From a virus, in IMG/VR virus record IMGVR_UViG_3300047388_000050, positions 1 to 42,632 of that record: DNA of 42,632 nt. One strand, given 5' to 3'. Shown here piece by piece: positions 10,979-18,813 of the stretch; the stretch's first letter is position 1, and each line of letters starts with the position of its first letter. Made by a program: the position numbers and the translations under genes. The notes below the pieces were generated by a model. That model saw only the letters and a program-made list of their open reading frames with translations, was not told the origin of the DNA and did no database searches.

Positions 10979-13954
10979 TTGGCTAATGACCATGTGATTG
11001 ATGTCAAGGTCCGGGCGGACTCCACCGGCCTGACTAAGGGTCTTTCCGAGGCTGAGCAGGGTTTGCAGAAGGCGGGGGCTGGGTTCTCGAAGTACGGGAC
11101 CGAGGCTGAGAAGGCTTCGACGCAGGCCCAGGGTTTCACTGCTCAAACTAAGAAGGGCATGGAGGATGTCGGCAAGTCCGCCATGATCATGGGCGGTGTG
11201 CTCCTTGCTGGCGTCGGTTTGGCTATCAAGGCCTATGCGGACTTCGCCGGTCGCATGGCTCAGGTGCAGTCCCTTTCGCACGCGTCTGCCAGTGACATGG
11301 ACATTCTTACGAAGTCAGCTCTCACGATGGGCAGCGCGTTTGGCATGTCCGCGAATGATGTTGCTGACGCTGAGATTGAGATGGTCAAGGCCGGTATCTC
11401 GGTGAAGGACATGATCAGCGGCGGTCTTGCTGGTGCGTTGACTCTTGCTGCGGCTGGTCAGATTGATGTGGGTAAAGCGACTGAGATCGCGACTATCGCG
11501 ATGACGCAGTTTGGTTTGCAGGGTAAGGATATCCCGCACGTTGCTGACCTTCTGGCGGCTGGTGCTGACAAGGCGCTTGGTGGTGTTGGTGACCTTGGCG
11601 AGGCGCTAAAGTCTGGCGGTCTGGTGGCTCACCAGTTCGGTGTTTCCTTGGATGAGACCGTGGGTGTGCTGTCGCTGTTCGCGAACAACGGCTTGCTGGG
11701 TGAAGCGGCTGGCACCGACTTGCGGCAGATGCTTCTGAAGCTCGCGGCACCGTCGAAGCAGGCATCCAAAGACATGGAGACGCTTGGCCTGTCGATCTAT
11801 GACACCCAAGGCCACTTCGTTGGCATGACTTCCCTCGCGGGTCAGTTGCACGACAAGATGCAGTCACTTTCTGAGGCTGAGCGCAACGCGATGCTCGCGC
11901 ACATCTTCGGTGCCCGTTCCATTGTTGGCGCGAACATCCTTTACCAGGCTGGCGCGCAGGGCGTCACGGACTGGACGAAGGCTGTCAATGACAGCGGGTT
12001 CGCTGCTAAGCAGGCTGCGGGCAAGATGGATTCCCTTCAGGGTGACTTCAAGAAGTTGCAGGGCGCCTTTGAGACCGGCCTGATTGAGATGGGCTCCACG
12101 GCTAATGGGTTCCTTCGCCCGGTTGTTCAGGGTGTCACGGATGCTATCAAGGCGTTCAATGATCTGCCTGAGTCTGCAAAGGGTACGGCGATGGGTATCG
12201 CTGGTGTTTCCGGTGCTGGCCTGTTGCTGCTCGGGACGGTCATCACTGTCATTCCGAAGATCCATGACACTATCCAGGCTTTCCATGATCTGGAGACGGG
12301 TTCACCCCGGCTTGCTGAGGGTATCAAGGGTGTTGGTAAGGCTGCTCTGGTTGCTGCTGGGCTTCTCGCGGCTTTGAAGATCGCTCAGACGATCGGTGAA
12401 AGCTTTGAGACTGCCACGAAATCCACTGACCAGTGGTCGCAGGCAATTATTGGGCTTCAGTCGAATTCTGCTAAGACGACTGACATCCTCGGGAAAGACA
12501 TGTTTGCTTCCTCGAATGGGCGTCAGTTTGTTAGTGACGTGAAGGACGTTGGGGAGGCGATCAAGCAGGTCACTGCCCCGGATGTGATTGACAACATCAA
12601 CGACTTTGGTAATTCGGTTTTGGGTGCGTTGTCCTTCGGGCAGTTGCACAAGGATACCCAGTTGGACAAGACACGCGAGTCTGTCAAGGGTCTTGATGCG
12701 GCGTTGACGAACTTCTCCAATTCGGGGAGTTCCGCGGTTGCTGCGGAGAGTTTCCACAAGATTGCTGTTGCTGCGGATAAGCAGGGCGTGTCGTTGGAGC
12801 AGACTTCCAAGGCGTTCCCGCAGTACATGGATTCGTTGCGGAAGCTGGCAACGGAGATGAAGGTATCGCTGACGCCGGCTGAGCTTCTGGATCTTGCTGT
12901 GGGTCGTATCCCGCAGAAGATGAAGGACGCGGCGGCTTCCACGGACGGTCAGGCTAAGGCTGCTGAGTTGGCTGCTCAGGCTACGAAGGAGCAGGAAAAG
13001 GCTCTATCTGATCTTGGTCTGGCGACTGACGGAACTGTGGAGGATCTGGACAAGCTGGTTACGGCGATGGCAAATGCCGGTCTGATCCAGATATCCGCCG
13101 ATGATGCGTTGCGGAACTATTACGCCTCGCTCGATGCCGTGGACGCGGAGATCAAGAAGAACGGCAAGTCCCTCGATATCCACACGGAGAAGGGCCGCGC
13201 TAACCAGAAGGCTTTGGATGATGTAGCGGGCTCAACGCTGGCTTTGGTGAAGGCGAACGCGAAGAACGGCGACTCCCAGGAGCAACTGAGTAAGACGCTC
13301 CACACCGGTTATGACGATCTGATGGCTAACTATGCGGCCTTCGGTATCACCGGTGACGCAGCGGACACCATGGCCCGAAAGGCCTTGGGTATCCCCAAGA
13401 ACGTCAACATTGACACGGCGATCCAGAATTACGCGGATTCCATGGCGAAGCTGAACGGGGTCAAGCAGGCCGTGGACGGGATCACGAATTACAAGGAAGT
13501 CGCAATCAACGTGAAGTACACGGAGTCGGGTACGGCGGTCCGTGACCGGGCTTCGGATGCCGGCTGGGCTGGTACCTCGGTGCAGGCTCAGGCAACTGGC
13601 GGTGCTGTTACTGGTCCTGGCGCGAAGGGTGTTGACTCTGAGCGGCGCCTGCTGGCTCCTGGTGAGCACGTCCTGACTGATTCGGACGTGGATGCTATGG
13701 GCGGTCAGTCTGCGGTGTATGCGTTCCGGCAGCAGCTCCACAGCGGCGGCGGTGTGCGGCCTACCTATGCGGCGGCTGCACCCCCAGCGCCTGTCATGAC
13801 GCAACTGTCCAACGGCGGTGACATGCAAATGACCGGAACCCTTGTGCTGGATTCGGGTGAGGTCATGGGCACGTTCCGGGGTATCGCCCGTCAGGCTGCT
13901 GCAGGTGCGGTGAACGCCGCTAATCAGGACGCGGCTCGTCGCCCGTCACGCTAA
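10979..13954 (+). CDS. Tape measure protein
   Basis: The longest gene, 991 residues. Tape measures set tail length at roughly 0.15 nm per residue, which predicts a tail of about 150 nm. Residues 1-60 are a helical, Ala/Gly/Lys-rich start. About 70-330 resembles the TP901-type core, with repeated small-residue helices. Hydrophobic segments lie near 70-90 and 402-427 (GAGLLLLGTVITVI), as is usual for proteins that enter the host membrane. The C-terminus has the GGAVTGPG and LLAPGEHVLTDSDVDAMGG motifs common at tape-measure ends. TTG start with TAGGAG (10967-10972) upstream. Confidence 0.93.
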   Translation: MANDHVIDVKVRADSTGLTKGLSEAEQGLQKAGAGFSKYGTEAEKASTQAQGFTAQTKKGMEDVGKSAMIMGGVLLAGVGLAIKAYADFAGRMAQVQSLSHASASDMDILTKSALTMGSAFGMSANDVADAEIEMVKAGISVKDMISGGLAGALTLAAAGQIDVGKATEIATIAMTQFGLQGKDIPHVADLLAAGADKALGGVGDLGEALKSGGLVAHQFGVSLDETVGVLSLFANNGLLGEAAGTDLRQMLLKLAAPSKQASKDMETLGLSIYDTQGHFVGMTSLAGQLHDKMQSLSEAERNAMLAHIFGARSIVGANILYQAGAQGVTDWTKAVNDSGFAAKQAAGKMDSLQGDFKKLQGAFETGLIEMGSTANGFLRPVVQGVTDAIKAFNDLPESAKGTAMGIAGVSGAGLLLLGTVITVIPKIHDTIQAFHDLETGSPRLAEGIKGVGKAALVAAGLLAALKIAQTIGESFETATKSTDQWSQAIIGLQSNSAKTTDILGKDMFASSNGRQFVSDVKDVGEAIKQVTAPDVIDNINDFGNSVLGALSFGQLHKDTQLDKTRESVKGLDAALTNFSNSGSSAVAAESFHKIAVAADKQGVSLEQTSKAFPQYMDSLRKLATEMKVSLTPAELLDLAVGRIPQKMKDAAASTDGQAKAAELAAQATKEQEKALSDLGLATDGTVEDLDKLVTAMANAGLIQISADDALRNYYASLDAVDAEIKKNGKSLDIHTEKGRANQKALDDVAGSTLALVKANAKNGDSQEQLSKTLHTGYDDLMANYAAFGITGDAADTMARKALGIPKNVNIDTAIQNYADSMAKLNGVKQAVDGITNYKEVAINVKYTESGTAVRDRASDAGWAGTSVQAQATGGAVTGPGAKGVDSERRLLAPGEHVLTDSDVDAMGGQSAVYAFRQQLHSGGGVRPTYAAAAPPAPVMTQLSNGGDMQMTGTLVLDSGEVMGTFRGIARQAAAGAVNAANQDAARRPSR

Positions 13955-13971
13955 CCAAGTAGGAGGCCCGT

Positions 13972-14814
13972 GTGGCACCGTCTATAGCTCTTGTGGGTAA
14001 GGCAACGTTTGATCCTTGTCCTCGGGTTGAGGTTACGATCGCTGGTTTGTCTGCTGGTGCGTCTGTGGTGAATGTGTGGCGTACTGCGGATGGTAAGCGG
14101 CAGGCGGTTCGTGGTGCGCGTAAGCGTTCGCTGAATGGTTCTGATTTTCTGGTTGATTACGAGGCGCCGTTTTTGCGGGTTGTTTCGTATGACTTGGAGA
14201 TCCTTTCCGGCCCGGACGCGGGGACTAGCACACCAACACAAACAGTGGTGCTTAGCCCCGCGTCTGGGTGTATCCAGGATCCGCTGACACCGGGCACGGC
14301 GATCCCTTTGTATGGGGATGTCGGGCCTAATGGTGAGCCGGCGTTGAAGGGTCAGGCGTTGCAGTCGTTTGAGTATGCGGCGGATATGACGTTGTTGAGT
14401 GTGTTGGGTTCGCCGGATCCGGTGGCGTTGATTGGGCAGCGGTTGTCTGCTCAGAACGTGTCGATGGATTTGGTGACTGCGGCGGCTCAGCAGACGACGT
14501 TGCTGCGGAACCTGATCATGCAGGCCGGTGTTTTGTTGGTGCGTCCGTTGAAGTCGTGGGGCGGTCAACTACCCGGCTGCTGCTATGTGGGTGCGAAGAC
14601 GGTCACTGAGTTGCCCGTCGATGTGTCATGGGGCGGTTCGGTAACGAACTGGGCTCTGAACACGACCCTGATCGCCGCCCCAACGATGAACGTTCTTGTG
14701 CCGATCTGGACGTACGGGGCGGTGCAAGCCTTGTTCACAACGTATGACCAGAATCTGACCGCGCTTGCTGGCAAAACTTATTTGGATGTTTTGAAATCGC
14801 CCTCTGGGGTGTAG
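13972..14814 (+). CDS. Minor tail protein, probable distal tail protein
   Basis: A 280-residue protein directly after the tape measure, where the distal tail (Dit-like) ring protein is encoded. The N-terminal 100 residues form an immunoglobulin-like beta pattern (RVEVTIAGLSAGASVVNVWRT) and the C-terminal part is beta with a short helical linker. GTG start with AGGAGG at 13961-13966, five bases upstream. Assignment by position and fold pattern. Confidence 0.78.
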   Translation: MAPSIALVGKATFDPCPRVEVTIAGLSAGASVVNVWRTADGKRQAVRGARKRSLNGSDFLVDYEAPFLRVVSYDLEILSGPDAGTSTPTQTVVLSPASGCIQDPLTPGTAIPLYGDVGPNGEPALKGQALQSFEYAADMTLLSVLGSPDPVALIGQRLSAQNVSMDLVTAAAQQTTLLRNLIMQAGVLLVRPLKSWGGQLPGCCYVGAKTVTELPVDVSWGGSVTNWALNTTLIAAPTMNVLVPIWTYGAVQALFTTYDQNLTALAGKTYLDVLKSPSGV

Positions 14815-14822
14815 GGGGAATT

Positions 14823-15161
14823 TTGGCTTCGACGGTTGGTATTTTCGCGGGGACTGTTTTTTCGTCTACTGCTCAGACGGTTTCGCAGGCTGTGAATAGC
14901 ACGTTGACTCCGGATTGGGTTGGTGTGGTGTTGTCGGTGTCTGCGGTTTCTGGTTCGAACCCGAGTGTGGTGTTTCGGTTGCAGTGGTCGATGGATGGTG
15001 CGACGTGGGCTGATGCGGATCCTGGGGATTCGTTTACGCCGATTGTTGCGCCGACGAATGTTGCTAAGCGGTTCACTGTGAAGGCTCCTTATTGGCGGGC
15101 TGTGGTGGATGTGTCTGGTTCTGGTGCGACGTTTACGGGTACTGCTAACGCTTATATCTAG
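14823..15161 (+). CDS. Small minor tail protein
   Basis: A 112-residue, Ser/Thr/Val-rich beta protein (VGVVLSVSAVSGSNPSVVF, RLQWSMDGATWADADPGDSF, PYWRAVVDVSG) that resembles single beta-sandwich domains used as tail-tip or decoration modules. TTG start with a GGGGG run six bases upstream. It lies between the distal-tail-like gene and the split hub gene, so it probably belongs to the tail tip. Confidence 0.7.
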   Translation: MASTVGIFAGTVFSSTAQTVSQAVNSTLTPDWVGVVLSVSAVSGSNPSVVFRLQWSMDGATWADADPGDSFTPIVAPTNVAKRFTVKAPYWRAVVDVSGSGATFTGTANAYI

Positions 15162-15172
15162 GGGGTTCCACC

Positions 15173-15613
15173 ATGCGTCAGATGGATGCGAACACTCTGA
15201 ATGCTTTGACCGGTAGCCGTGCCGGTGATGGGGTAACAGCCTGGGTTTGGTATGACGGCAGGCTTGCTTTGCCTGACCCGTTGCCGATCGATTCGTGGTC
15301 CGCGGATTGGGACACGACACGGCAAGTCCAGCAACTGAATCTGTCCGTCAGTGACACGGACGGAAAGCTCGCCCCCTGGCTACTCGAAGACCCTTTGGGC
15401 GTTGGCGGCGCGCTCTTGCAGGTCACGTACCAAGTCGGTGGCGCCGGCACCGTGAACCTCGGCTGGTACAGGATCGCCCAATCCCAACCAGTCGAACACT
15501 GGCACTCATACACGATTGACGACACCGGCCATGTGCACCCCACGTTGAGCGAGTCATTCGGGCATGTCTACCCCGGCGATGACACTATCCCCGGCCCCAT
15601 CTACCCGCTCTAG
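15173..15613 (+). CDS. Tail-hub/minor tail protein, N-terminal part (split gene)
   Basis: A 146-residue protein corresponding to the N-terminal third of a conserved actinophage minor tail protein (DUF5047-like). The motifs TTRQVQQLNLSVSDTDGKLAPW, EDPLGVGG and NLGWYRIAQSQP are the start of that family, which normally continues in one frame to what is encoded here 2.35 kb downstream at 17965-18813. The last 30 residues (TLSESFGHVYPGDDTIPGPIYPL) replace that continuation. ATG at 15173 with GGGGGTTCC upstream. Family identity is recalled, not searched; the split itself is visible in the frames. Confidence 0.75.
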   Translation: MRQMDANTLNALTGSRAGDGVTAWVWYDGRLALPDPLPIDSWSADWDTTRQVQQLNLSVSDTDGKLAPWLLEDPLGVGGALLQVTYQVGGAGTVNLGWYRIAQSQPVEHWHSYTIDDTGHVHPTLSESFGHVYPGDDTIPGPIYPL

Positions 15614-15622
15614 GAGCACCCT

Positions 15623-15943
15623 TTGACTAATTATGTTGACGGCCCCGCGGGTGGCACACCCCTGAATGCGGCCAACCTGAATCGTGACTTCAACTCGCGG
15701 CCTGCTAAATGGGCGGCAGGTACACCGTATGTGGGCGGCACTGACATCTGCGTGAACCCGTCCGGCGATCTTGTTTCGTGCACGGTTTCCCACACCTCGG
15801 GCGGGTCCTACGACGCCACGAAATGGGCACTTTCTGCCACTTATGCCCTTGTCACTTCTGTGGCACCAACCACCCTTGACGGCGGCAATGCGACCTCCGT
15901 TTACACCGGAACATTCAACTTCGACGGCGGGAGCGCTACGTAA
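15623..15943 (+). CDS. Tail fibre-associated small protein
   Basis: A 106-residue protein. Its N-terminus (NYVDGPAGGTPLNAANLNRDF) is the short segment often found at the start of phage tail fibres, where the GGTPLNAANLN motif recurs. The middle (CTVSHTSGGSYDATKWALS) resembles fibre repeat material, and the end repeats Gly/Ser/Thr. TTG start with AGGAG about seven bases upstream. TAATG overlap with the SGNH fibre gene suggests that the two products work together, perhaps as adaptor and fibre. Confidence 0.72.
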   Translation: MTNYVDGPAGGTPLNAANLNRDFNSRPAKWAAGTPYVGGTDICVNPSGDLVSCTVSHTSGGSYDATKWALSATYALVTSVAPTTLDGGNATSVYTGTFNFDGGSAT

Positions 15944-17712
15944 TGGCAAACAGGATTCAGCACCGCAGAGACACCGCCGCCAACTGGGCCGCAGCGAACC
16001 CTGTCCTCGCCGCAGGTGAGATCGGCTATGAGACGGGCACCATGCAGGCCAAGACCGGTGACGGGTCCACGGCCTGGATGTCACTCCCTTATCGGGCCGT
16101 AGGAAACCCTGACGATGTTGGCTATGACGTGATATTGCTCGCTGGCCAGTCAAACATGGTCGGCCAGAATTCCGGGTATGACACGAGCAGGCTGGATTTC
16201 TCCGACCCGAATATCAGTGTCTATTCCGGGTCTGGCAGTTATGCCAACATCATCAGTCTTGCAGCGGAACCTCTAGCCCATCAGGACACCGCATCCGGTA
16301 TTGGACCAGGGCTGCCCTTCGCTCGGCTATACGCTGGACGACTTCCACGCAATAGGCGCGTCCTTCTCGTCGCTGCCGGCTGGAAGGGGACGCCTTTCGA
16401 GGGGTTGGATAGCGCGGGAGGGAATCACGTCTGGAAAACCACGTCTACGGACAACGGGAACAACCTGTATCTCAACGCTATCCGTCAGGTGCAAAGCGCC
16501 CTCGCCGCGGGTGGGCCGAATAGCAGGCTGGCCGCTATTCTTTGGTTGCAGGGTGAGAGTGACGCCATCAACGGCACAAGCGCATCCACCTATCAGGCTG
16601 ACCTTGATGCGCTGATTGATGGATTCCGTACGCAGTTCTCCAACGCGACGATCCCGTTTGTCATTGCTCAGATGCTGCCCGAAAAGATCGACGCCACAGC
16701 TGCCTTCGCCGCGATCCACGCAGTGCACGCAGCGACGCCCACGCGCAAAGCATATACAGCCTTCGCCTACGGCCCCTATGGGCTCAATAACGGAGATCTC
16801 CTGCACTACAACGCCCCCGGACAGAGGGTGAACGGGCGCAACATGTTCGAAGCCCTCAAGTACGCCCTCTTGAATACTTCCGCAGCCGGGGCAACCATCC
16901 CTGTGCCCTCAACCGTAACCGGGCTGGTTGTGACCGCGCCGGATTATCAGAGCATAAAGGCGTCTTGGACGTTAGTCCCCTCTGCCACGTCCTACCATGT
17001 CCAATACAAGGCCACTTCATCAGGCACATGGCTGGATACGACGGGCACGGCATACGACGGCAACACCATGACGATCACGGGGCTGTCTGGGAGCACCTCC
17101 TACGATGTGCGCATCAAAGCGCGGAACGCTGGTGGGGATGCGGCTGCTTCCACAACGGTGAGCGCCACAACTGCCGCCGCACCTGTGACATACGCAGCAG
17201 ACACATTCAATAGGGCTGACAGTAGCTCCACTCTTGGGTCCACGACAACAGGATCCTACGCGTGGTCAGCGGTCGTTGGAACGTGGGGCATTTCGAGCAA
17301 CGCCGCATACGATGTGACCGCAACAAGCGCCAACCACATCGCAACAATAGATGACACGCACGCAAACGGAACTGTCGCCGCCCAGCTATTCGGATCATCG
17401 CCAGTAAACTCTGGAATCCTTTTCCGCCTTACAGACGCAAGCAACTTCTGGGTTTGGTTGGCAAACGGAACGCTCTACAAGTGCGTCGCAGGATCATTTA
17501 CGAGCGTCGGGAGCCTCCCGCTGCGCACCCCAGCGTCAGGAGACACCTATTCGGCAATCCTCAACGGCAGTTCGATCACATTGAAGGTCAACGGCGCAGT
17601 TTACGGAAGCGCAACGGATTCATTCAACCAGAGCGCCACGCAACACGGTCTCCTAAACAAGGGCACCGGGAACACGTTCGACAACTTCAGCCACACAGAC
17701 GCCACCTCCTAG
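15943..17712 (+). CDS. Tail fibre with SGNH/sialate-O-acetylesterase-type domain
   Basis: A 589-residue multidomain protein. Residues 1-50 (RIQHRRDTAANWAAANPVLAAG) form the short virion-attachment domain common in fibres. Residues 62-310 are an SGNH hydrolase of the SASA type: LLAGQSNMVGQ with nucleophile S70, WLQGESDA with E205, and DLLHYNAPGQ with D285 and H288. Residues 322-410 are a fibronectin type III domain. Residues 416-586 look like a concanavalin/LamG-like carbohydrate-binding sandwich. It probably binds and de-O-acetylates a host surface glycan. The codon choice uses more A/T-ending codons in the last third than its neighbours do. Confidence 0.85.
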   Translation: MANRIQHRRDTAANWAAANPVLAAGEIGYETGTMQAKTGDGSTAWMSLPYRAVGNPDDVGYDVILLAGQSNMVGQNSGYDTSRLDFSDPNISVYSGSGSYANIISLAAEPLAHQDTASGIGPGLPFARLYAGRLPRNRRVLLVAAGWKGTPFEGLDSAGGNHVWKTTSTDNGNNLYLNAIRQVQSALAAGGPNSRLAAILWLQGESDAINGTSASTYQADLDALIDGFRTQFSNATIPFVIAQMLPEKIDATAAFAAIHAVHAATPTRKAYTAFAYGPYGLNNGDLLHYNAPGQRVNGRNMFEALKYALLNTSAAGATIPVPSTVTGLVVTAPDYQSIKASWTLVPSATSYHVQYKATSSGTWLDTTGTAYDGNTMTITGLSGSTSYDVRIKARNAGGDAAASTTVSATTAAAPVTYAADTFNRADSSSTLGSTTTGSYAWSAVVGTWGISSNAAYDVTATSANHIATIDDTHANGTVAAQLFGSSPVNSGILFRLTDASNFWVWLANGTLYKCVAGSFTSVGSLPLRTPASGDTYSAILNGSSITLKVNGAVYGSATDSFNQSATQHGLLNKGTGNTFDNFSHTDATS

Positions 17713-17871
17713 TTACCACGTCTGGTTGAAAGCATCTGCCTCGTCCCGGCATTGCGCCGAGCAGTACCGGGACGAGGCGTCATCTCGAAGGATGCAGCCA
17801 CAGGAGCCGCATTGCCCACTGCTCAGCTTGTAGAAACTGCGCATCCTACGAATGATCGTCCCAATAGTCAT
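17713..17871 (-). CDS. Small zinc-finger-like protein (minus strand)
   Basis: A 52-residue protein opposite to the late operon, immediately beyond the fibre stop. A basic N-terminal helix (TIGTIIRRMRSFYKL) is followed by CGSCGCILRDDASSRYCSAQC, a CxxC...CxxxC treble-clef-like zinc site. ATG 17871 is chosen because TATACT (17883-17878 on the minus strand) ends six bases before it, giving a leaderless transcript; the frame stays open to a possible start at 17922. A 12-base inverted repeat lies in its coding sequence. Function unknown; a moron is likely. Confidence 0.62.
   Translation of the reverse strand: MTIGTIIRRMRSFYKLSSGQCGSCGCILRDDASSRYCSAQCRDEADAFNQTW
17738..17778. repeat. Perfect 12-bp inverted repeat inside the minus-strand gene
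   Basis: GCCTCGTCCCGG at 17738-17749 and CCGGGACGAGGC at 17767-17778, with a 17-base loop. It begins 26 bases beyond the stop of the fibre gene and lies within the zinc-finger gene on the other strand. It could protect the 3' end of the fibre mRNA, act as a factorless terminator, or be a protein-binding site. Confidence 0.65.
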
Positions 17872-17877
17872 GCGTCG

Positions 17878-17883
17878 AGTATA
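17878..17883 (-). promoter_or_regulatory. -10 box of the minus-strand zinc-finger gene (leaderless)
   Basis: Minus strand reads TATACT, then six bases, then the ATG at 17871-17869. A weak -35 candidate, TAGTCC, lies 17 bases further upstream. No Shine-Dalgarno sequence is visible before the ATG. Confidence 0.5.
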
Positions 17884-17920
17884 AGGGGCTACATAAGACC
17901 GGACTAGCGCCCCACCCTTC

Positions 17921-17944
17921 AAGCCCCGTAACAGGGGCTTTTTT
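17921..17944 (+). terminator. Intrinsic terminator before the hub C-terminal part
   Basis: AAGCCCC (17921-17927) pairs with GGGGCTT (17934-17940) around GTAACA and is followed by a further TTTT: a classical rho-independent terminator in plus orientation. It marks the right border of the inserted fibre module. The following gene has its own strong ribosome site but no visible promoter, so read-through must occur. Confidence 0.78.
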
Positions 17945-17964
17945 CATGCCCTTAGGAGGCCGTT

Positions 17965-18813
17965 TTGCAGGCTGGTTTTTTGGGTACGAATGTGCTCGTT
18001 AGTGGTGGGGCTCAGGTTCAGTTGACGGCGTATGACGTTGGCGTGTTGGCGGCGAACTCTAAGTTGTTGGCGCCTGAGTCTCCGCAGGGTGGGTCACCGA
18101 CGATCGTTTCGGAGATTACAAGGTTGATGGATGGTATCGCCCCGGTGGTGGTGCTCGCTGGTGTGATTGACCGGCCAGTGAACACGAGCCTTGTTTACCA
18201 GCAGGACCGGTTGAACGCTGTCCAAGACCTGTGTAAGCGCATCAACGCGGACTACAGGTTCAACGGGAACAAGCAGTTAGAGATCTACCCGCTGACCCCT
18301 CAAACCCCTGTGTGGACGATCCAGGGCGGACCTGAAGGCGTCCTCGTCAGTGTTGACAGGTCGATGGATTTGAACGGGCTCTACAACCAGTTCATCGCGG
18401 ACGGCACCGCAACCGTGAACGGGCAACAAGTACCGATCCGTGGTGTCGCTCAGATCAGTGCAGGGCCGTTGCGTTGGGGTGGGCCGCACGGGAAATACCC
18501 AGAGTTCTACCAATCCAACCTGCTCACCACACAGGCGGATTGTGATGCGTACGCGCAGACCATGATGAACACCCAGCTCGCCGGGTTGTCCGTGGACTTG
18601 AAGATCACGTGCCTGCCACACCCCGGCCTGCAACAAGGCGACTGGGTAACAGTGATCGCACCCACCGTGAACAACAACCACGTCAGCCTCATTGGCCGTG
18701 TGAAGCAGATGGGTTTGAAGTCCAACGGAACCGCTGTGGACCGCATGACACTCACCGTCGAATGCACCTACGCCGACGTGCAAACAGCCATAGGAGGCGT
18801 GGATCGTGGCTAA
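17965..18813 (+). CDS. Tail-hub/minor tail protein, C-terminal part (split gene)
   Basis: A 282-residue protein that begins in mid-family: VSGGAQVQLTAYDVGVLAANSKLLAPESPQ, SEITRLMDG, NTSLVYQQDRLNAVQDLCKRIN and ADYRFNGNKQLEI correspond to the body of the DUF5047-like minor tail protein whose N-terminus is at 15173-15613. The C-terminal half (ISAGPLRWGGPHGKYPEFYQS, MNTQLAGLSVDLKITCLPHPG) is the conserved hub-like region. TTG start with AGGAGG at 17954-17959 five bases upstream, so it is now translated independently. The two parts may assemble as one domain. Confidence 0.78.
   Translation: MQAGFLGTNVLVSGGAQVQLTAYDVGVLAANSKLLAPESPQGGSPTIVSEITRLMDGIAPVVVLAGVIDRPVNTSLVYQQDRLNAVQDLCKRINADYRFNGNKQLEIYPLTPQTPVWTIQGGPEGVLVSVDRSMDLNGLYNQFIADGTATVNGQQVPIRGVAQISAGPLRWGGPHGKYPEFYQSNLLTTQADCDAYAQTMMNTQLAGLSVDLKITCLPHPGLQQGDWVTVIAPTVNNNHVSLIGRVKQMGLKSNGTAVDRMTLTVECTYADVQTAIGGVDRG

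Follow-up and report, generated by a model that had tools for sequence, protein, structure and literature searches.

Does a conserved tail gene of this phage lie in two pieces around a fibre module and, if so, can the pieces still work together? The question is raised by positions 15173–18813 of a 42,632-nt viral record (IMG/VR IMGVR_UViG_3300047388_000050; this whole stretch of DNA is called the window), where a first-pass annotation had read two separated frames as the halves of one minor tail protein. We find that in this soil actinobacterial phage a tail-hub gene, which is normally single, is split by an inserted fibre module.

Layout and break point of the hub gene

The first part (N part, 146 aa, ATG start) lies on the plus strand at 15173–15613, following the tape measure gene (10979–13954) and a minor tail gene (13972–14814). 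Its residues 1–131 are homologous to the unsplit hub, and residues 132–146 (VYPGDDTIPGPIYPL) are new in comparison. The second part (C part, 282 aa) lies at 17965–18813 on the same strand, starts with TTG and is homologous to the unsplit hub over residues 10–282. The strong ribosome-binding site ascribed to it before is indeed present, as TTAGGAGG stands directly 5′ of the TTG (17952–17967, plus strand). All five open reading frames were recovered where they had been placed, with a fibre adaptor, a fibre, a minus-strand zinc-finger ORF and a terminator in the gap. Regarding composition, a small tail gene at 14823–15161 has no A at third codon positions and a strong G/T bias, and codon usage shifts abruptly inside the N part near 15320.

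When aligned end to end with actinophage tail proteins, both parts matched one and the same annotated gene, the “minor tail protein” gene gp18 of LittleTokyo. Residues 4–131 of the N part correspond to 13354–13749 and residues 10–273 of the C part to 13756–14556; the two stretches are adjacent and do not overlap, with a gap of two residues between them. The break is therefore located between N-part codon 131 (15565) and C-part codon 10 (17992), which delimit an inserted block of 2,426 bp (15566–17991). A hub protein of about 410 aa from Arthrobacter phages and soil viral contigs also spans both parts from end to end, with about two residues unaccounted for. Since unsplit homologues extend from end to end across both parts, the proposal of one normally single gene in two parts is borne out.

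No direct repeats of at least 7 bp were found at the insert edges, which share a single 7-bp inverted match, and a site-specific or transposon-like insertion was rejected on these grounds. A search for site duplications within the region gave just short, chance-like repeat pairs.

Protein family and predicted fold

The family label given initially, DUF5047, was not confirmed: its Pfam model gave no match at E ≤ 0.1 among 25 family members, nor to either part at E ≤ 1, and no other Pfam or NCBIfam family matched the hub protein. Instead, the PHROG 1887 profile (“tail protein”) matches 23 of the 25 members, and the window's C part with an E-value of 7e-29. A sequence search of PDB with the hub profile returned no relative, and the hub was identified by fold comparison alone. 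An AlphaFold2 model of an unsplit relative (L006; pLDDT 84) matched the MuSo2 hub 3cdd (Z 21.8, rmsd 4.0 over 301 residues), Mu gp44 (1wru, Z 21.3) and T4 gp27 (1k28, Z 19.6), as well as the tail-tip hubs of Douge and Bxb1. As modelled, the unsplit relative adopts a baseplate-hub fold of the gp27/Mu gp44/VgrG type, with Z-scores of about 21.

In this model, the cut site corresponds to residues 113–134, the worst-scored loop (pLDDT 50–60), between strands 92–112 and 135–148. By analogy with the known hubs, strand 135–148 would be the last strand of hub domain I, and the cut would hence fall inside this domain. On this domain reading the N part would represent most of domain I, and the C part presumably supplies its last strand together with the remaining hub. 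The tail of the N part (residues 126–146) is predicted to be disordered (pLDDT < 50). Modelled alone, the N part reached a pLDDT of 69 and gave weak barrel matches to Hcp, the Bxb1 hub and VgrG (Z about 4).

The inserted cassette

The first gene of the insert is the fibre adaptor (106 aa, 15623–15943, plus strand, TTG start), which contains a TPLNAANLN motif and whose last 36 residues recur directly 5′ of Mtd_N fibres in Persistence, Nandita and contig L022. The fibre (589 aa, 15943–17712, plus strand, ATG start) had been described as SGNH-type. It is a fibre, and its precise identity is Mtd_N (residues 5–43) followed by a SASA (sialate-type acetylesterase) domain (62–304) with GQSNM, QGES and LLHY motifs and by fn3 (324–407); its C-terminal domain is shared with Persistence gp31. 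Direct relatives of the fibre were not confirmed in IMG/VR. None of the 11 records with unsplit relatives has an Mtd_N fibre, and the only other record with one, that of L022, is without a hub match. Scans of the insert ORFs with Pfam, PHROGs and NCBIfam recognized the fibre, the adaptor and the zinc-finger ORF only and no homing endonuclease.

Comparable cassettes exist in Persistence (gp30–gp32) and Eileen (gp28–gp30), where, as in the window, a minus-strand zinc-finger ORF, preceded by the same element, comes after a hydrolase fibre; the Persistence cassette also has the short adaptor and Mtd_N. However, in both phages the hub is intact and the cassette closes the structural operon, whereas in the window it is located inside the hub gene. 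In L022, a similar adaptor–fibre pair follows the tape measure and precedes the next tail gene, so that such cassettes occupy several places. Related fibres or adaptor–fibre pairs (L025 5627–7656, L022 6497–8725, L023 7788–9859, L024 9557–12211) were seen in at least three other genome positions, i.e., ahead of the tape measure, between it and the next tail gene, and at the structural operon end.

The minus-strand ORF with a CxxC..CxxxC zinc finger (17713–17922; start likely ATG at about 17869) agrees in position and strand with Persistence gp32 and an unannotated frame of Eileen. Its matches to phages are weak only (E 0.07–0.3), but those in Eileen and Persistence lie at the corresponding place. 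Directly 5′ of the ORF, a conserved CCGGTCTTAT-N-CCCC-TATACT element (17878–17902, minus strand) is a candidate promoter/operator, and since CCGGTCTTAT is common to the window, Persistence and Eileen at this site, it supports the ORF being a gene. On the minus strand, CCGGTCTTAT is located at about 9866–9890 in L023 and at about 12387 in L024; L022 carries it as GGTCTTAT at about 9580, there 5′ of an SGNH gene on the minus strand. A −10-like TATACT or TACAAT follows the element, which directly precedes the minus-strand gene after the fibre in three phages whose proteins are unlike. Judged by its conservation, the CCGGTCTTAT/GGTCTTAT element may be a promoter or operator of a moron-like gene. 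One pattern-scan match of the element in IMG/VR (L085) is inside a coding frame and was taken as chance.

Between the fibre and the hub C part, the plus strand carries an intrinsic terminator-like hairpin (AAGCCCC-GTAACA-GGGGCTT-TTTT; 17921–17944; −13.3 kcal/mol, z −3.2). As the hairpin is directly 5′ of the C part and no promoter was found between the two, the C part may be poorly transcribed. No terminator was detected after Persistence gp32 (L023 9500–10700); thus, the window's terminator need not have come with the cassette.

Unsplit relatives and a second split contig

Neither were the two frames assigned to unrelated families nor do relatives always have two genes: in 73 of 78 loci or records with any match, some of the 73 being overlapping fetches of one contig, the N- and C-part profiles are found in one ORF. 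Of the remaining five, two are the window and its sub-locus as fetched a second time (L001), one is contig L020, which is split and where the contig ends, and two are edge-cut contigs (L005, L080), the former with the linker read through at its edge. Among 395 genomes around an Arthrobacter genome, a scan found four matches, all unsplit with open frames of 407–433 aa; one of these was already among the fetched loci, which leaves three further cellular, prophage-bearing genomes. In sum, 73 unsplit loci and three further genomes stand against two split cases, and a full-length gene of this size class is also present in the more distant Wheelbite, Wollypog, Kharcho and Brevibacterium AGM1. Based on these loci, the genome scan and the distant relatives, we conclude that the gene is unsplit as a rule, the split form being derived. 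Close unsplit relatives have 60–72% aa identity. The homologous hubs of the Arthrobacter phages (LittleTokyo gp18, Persistence gp20, Eileen gp20; PHROG 1887) show the same order after the tape measure, but there the gene is uninterrupted and the fibres are located elsewhere, whereas the window has its fibre inside the hub gene.

The second split case, L020 (IMG/VR 3300012381_000142, 2,263 bp), has 72% DNA identity to window positions 13951–15847. It shows the same N part with a stop at the matching place and the same adaptor start, until the adaptor departs from that of the window after residue 75 and leads into a different, longer fibre-like frame. Consequently, the N-side junction is seen twice and the C-side junction in the window only. 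The N-part stop (TAG) and the adaptor are in-frame and 9 nt apart in both contigs (15611–15631; L020 1818–1832); read-through of this stop would yield a fusion of hub domain I with the fibre adaptor. The N part and adaptor start (window 15173–15847, L020 1377–2051) are 80–82% identical at the nucleotide level and the upstream flanking genes 61–68%. Because the block is closer than its flanks, this suggests that it may be recombining between lineages.

Selection and competing explanations

Over residues 1–123, the N parts of the window and L020 share 94% of their amino acids (dN 0.069, dS 1.05, dN/dS about 0.07). As judged from these substitution rates, strong purifying selection on the N part is shown, and it would have acted after the split provided that both phages inherited the split from one ancestor. 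Given that selection still acts strongly on at least this first half, two separate proteins probably make up the hub. The trees of the N and C parts, both poorly resolved at this depth, do not conflict strongly.

We consider it likely that a cassette was inserted in a loop of a single-chain hub, that both cistrons are translated and that a trimeric hub assembles from the two chains. The cassette (adaptor, esterase fibre, minus-strand zinc-finger gene and terminator) would have entered the loop before the last strand of domain I and turned one hub gene into two cistrons. The N cistron would then have acquired a stop and a short disordered tail, and the C cistron its own ribosome-binding site and TTG start. 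With both chains made, the first strand of the C part would complete the N-part barrel, and either transcription would continue past the terminator-like hairpin or the C part would be produced in smaller amounts. We infer translation of both parts, their assembly in trans and the completion of domain I by the C part's first strand, and likewise the order of events, i.e., an intact hub first and the insertion second. This hairpin, directly 5′ of the C part, is the main difficulty for the two-chain reading. No more than three hub copies are needed per virion. T4 mobE, between nrdA and nrdB, has a terminator of a comparable kind that is partly active (PMC2988022).

According to a second explanation, the C part by itself serves as the hub, and the N part has been repurposed as an anchor of the fibre cassette that moves with the adaptor as a unit. 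The N part and the adaptor (87% aa identity between the window and L020) are co-conserved well above the flanking genes (68% and 52%) and may thus move together, and the in-frame, 9-nt spacing of stop and adaptor fits this as well. However, 31 of the 32 positions that unsplit hubs conserve are kept in the N part, which would be expected of a protein whose partners are unchanged. Moreover, a lone C part would be without the greater part of domain I, a domain that is present in other hubs and in some of them placed on a second chain (PMC10721106). We regard this explanation as unlikely.

Less probable again is decay of the C part to a remnant, or an origin of the record from a defective prophage or relic, for which the terminator before the C part and a C-side junction known from one contig only could be cited. 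Nevertheless, the 282-codon frame is intact, without stop or frameshift, has a strong ribosome site and retains 36 of 37 conserved positions, similar to unsplit members. In a neutral simulation at 0.2–0.5 substitutions per site, which presumes a split as old as the divergence of the window and L020, the C part remained stop-free in 1.2% to <0.05% of the runs. In addition, the terminase, portal, capsid, major tail and tape measure genes of the record have good family matches, which argues against a relic.

A misassembly joining two phages might be suspected in a metagenomic or viral record with composition shifts near the junctions. However, the N-side junction is reproduced independently by L020, and it would be very improbable for two breaks to coincide with the matching ends of a single linker. 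Since L020 is an independent contig with the same split, stop and adaptor and an unlike fibre, misassembly is very unlikely and the split appears to be inherited. Finally, the clean break, with so few residues missing, could suit a rejoining of the pieces by intron or intein splicing or by precise excision of the insert, but this is hardly credible, as the insert carries whole genes on both strands, its edges lack direct repeats, no Rfam match was obtained, nothing intein-like is present in the frames and no recombinase was recognized.

Comparison with known systems

A hub gene that is split and has close unsplit relatives may bear on how two-chain hubs arise. To our knowledge, the transition from a one-chain to a two-chain hub has not been caught in the act. 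With intact and split forms and the inserted cassette at hand at 60–72% identity, the step is directly testable. The locus would also provide a baseplate hub with a split site that is natural and has been tested by selection, and it places receptor-binding genes in a new position. As the N part and the first 75 adaptor residues are conserved in both split phages and the sequence after them differs, the split hub loop could possibly serve as a docking site for exchangeable receptor-binding cassettes, host-range cargo being swapped inside a two-piece hub gene; we put this forward tentatively. If true, cassette swapping would repeat in recent time the kind of step behind the L-K-I-J arrangement of lambda.

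Hubs of one chain are known from T4, T5 and 80-alpha and hubs of two chains from lambda and RcGTA, where gpL and gp13 carry HDI, gpJ and gp15 carry the other domains (HDII–IV), and further genes separate the two cistrons (PMC10721106). As would apply to the window, the hub is distributed over two polypeptides, domain I comes first and tail genes lie between the cistrons. However, the break in lambda is old and lies between HDI and HDII (within the HDII-insertion region), whereas the break in the window would fall inside HDI as read from the model; the window's hub, unlike that of lambda, has close unsplit relatives and a fibre cassette as cargo. Furthermore, lambda gpL has a C-terminal iron-sulfur domain, whereas the N part of the window contains no cysteine and, therefore, none for a domain of this type.

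Coding regions split by an insertion into two cistrons are also represented by nrdA of Aeromonas phage Aeh1, gene 43A/43B and T4 gene 60, whose products reassemble (PMC2988022), as we suppose for the window; the split nrdA of Aeh1 is fully functional (PMC2988022). In these genes-in-pieces a homing endonuclease or an untranslated spacer interrupts a gene for an enzyme, whereas in the window a multi-gene receptor-binding module interrupts a structural tail gene. An earlier report of such a hub split was not found in open-licence full texts. What is new is a recent hub split with close unsplit relatives, with a break that, as read from the model, would lie inside domain I, and with a receptor-binding cassette as the insert.
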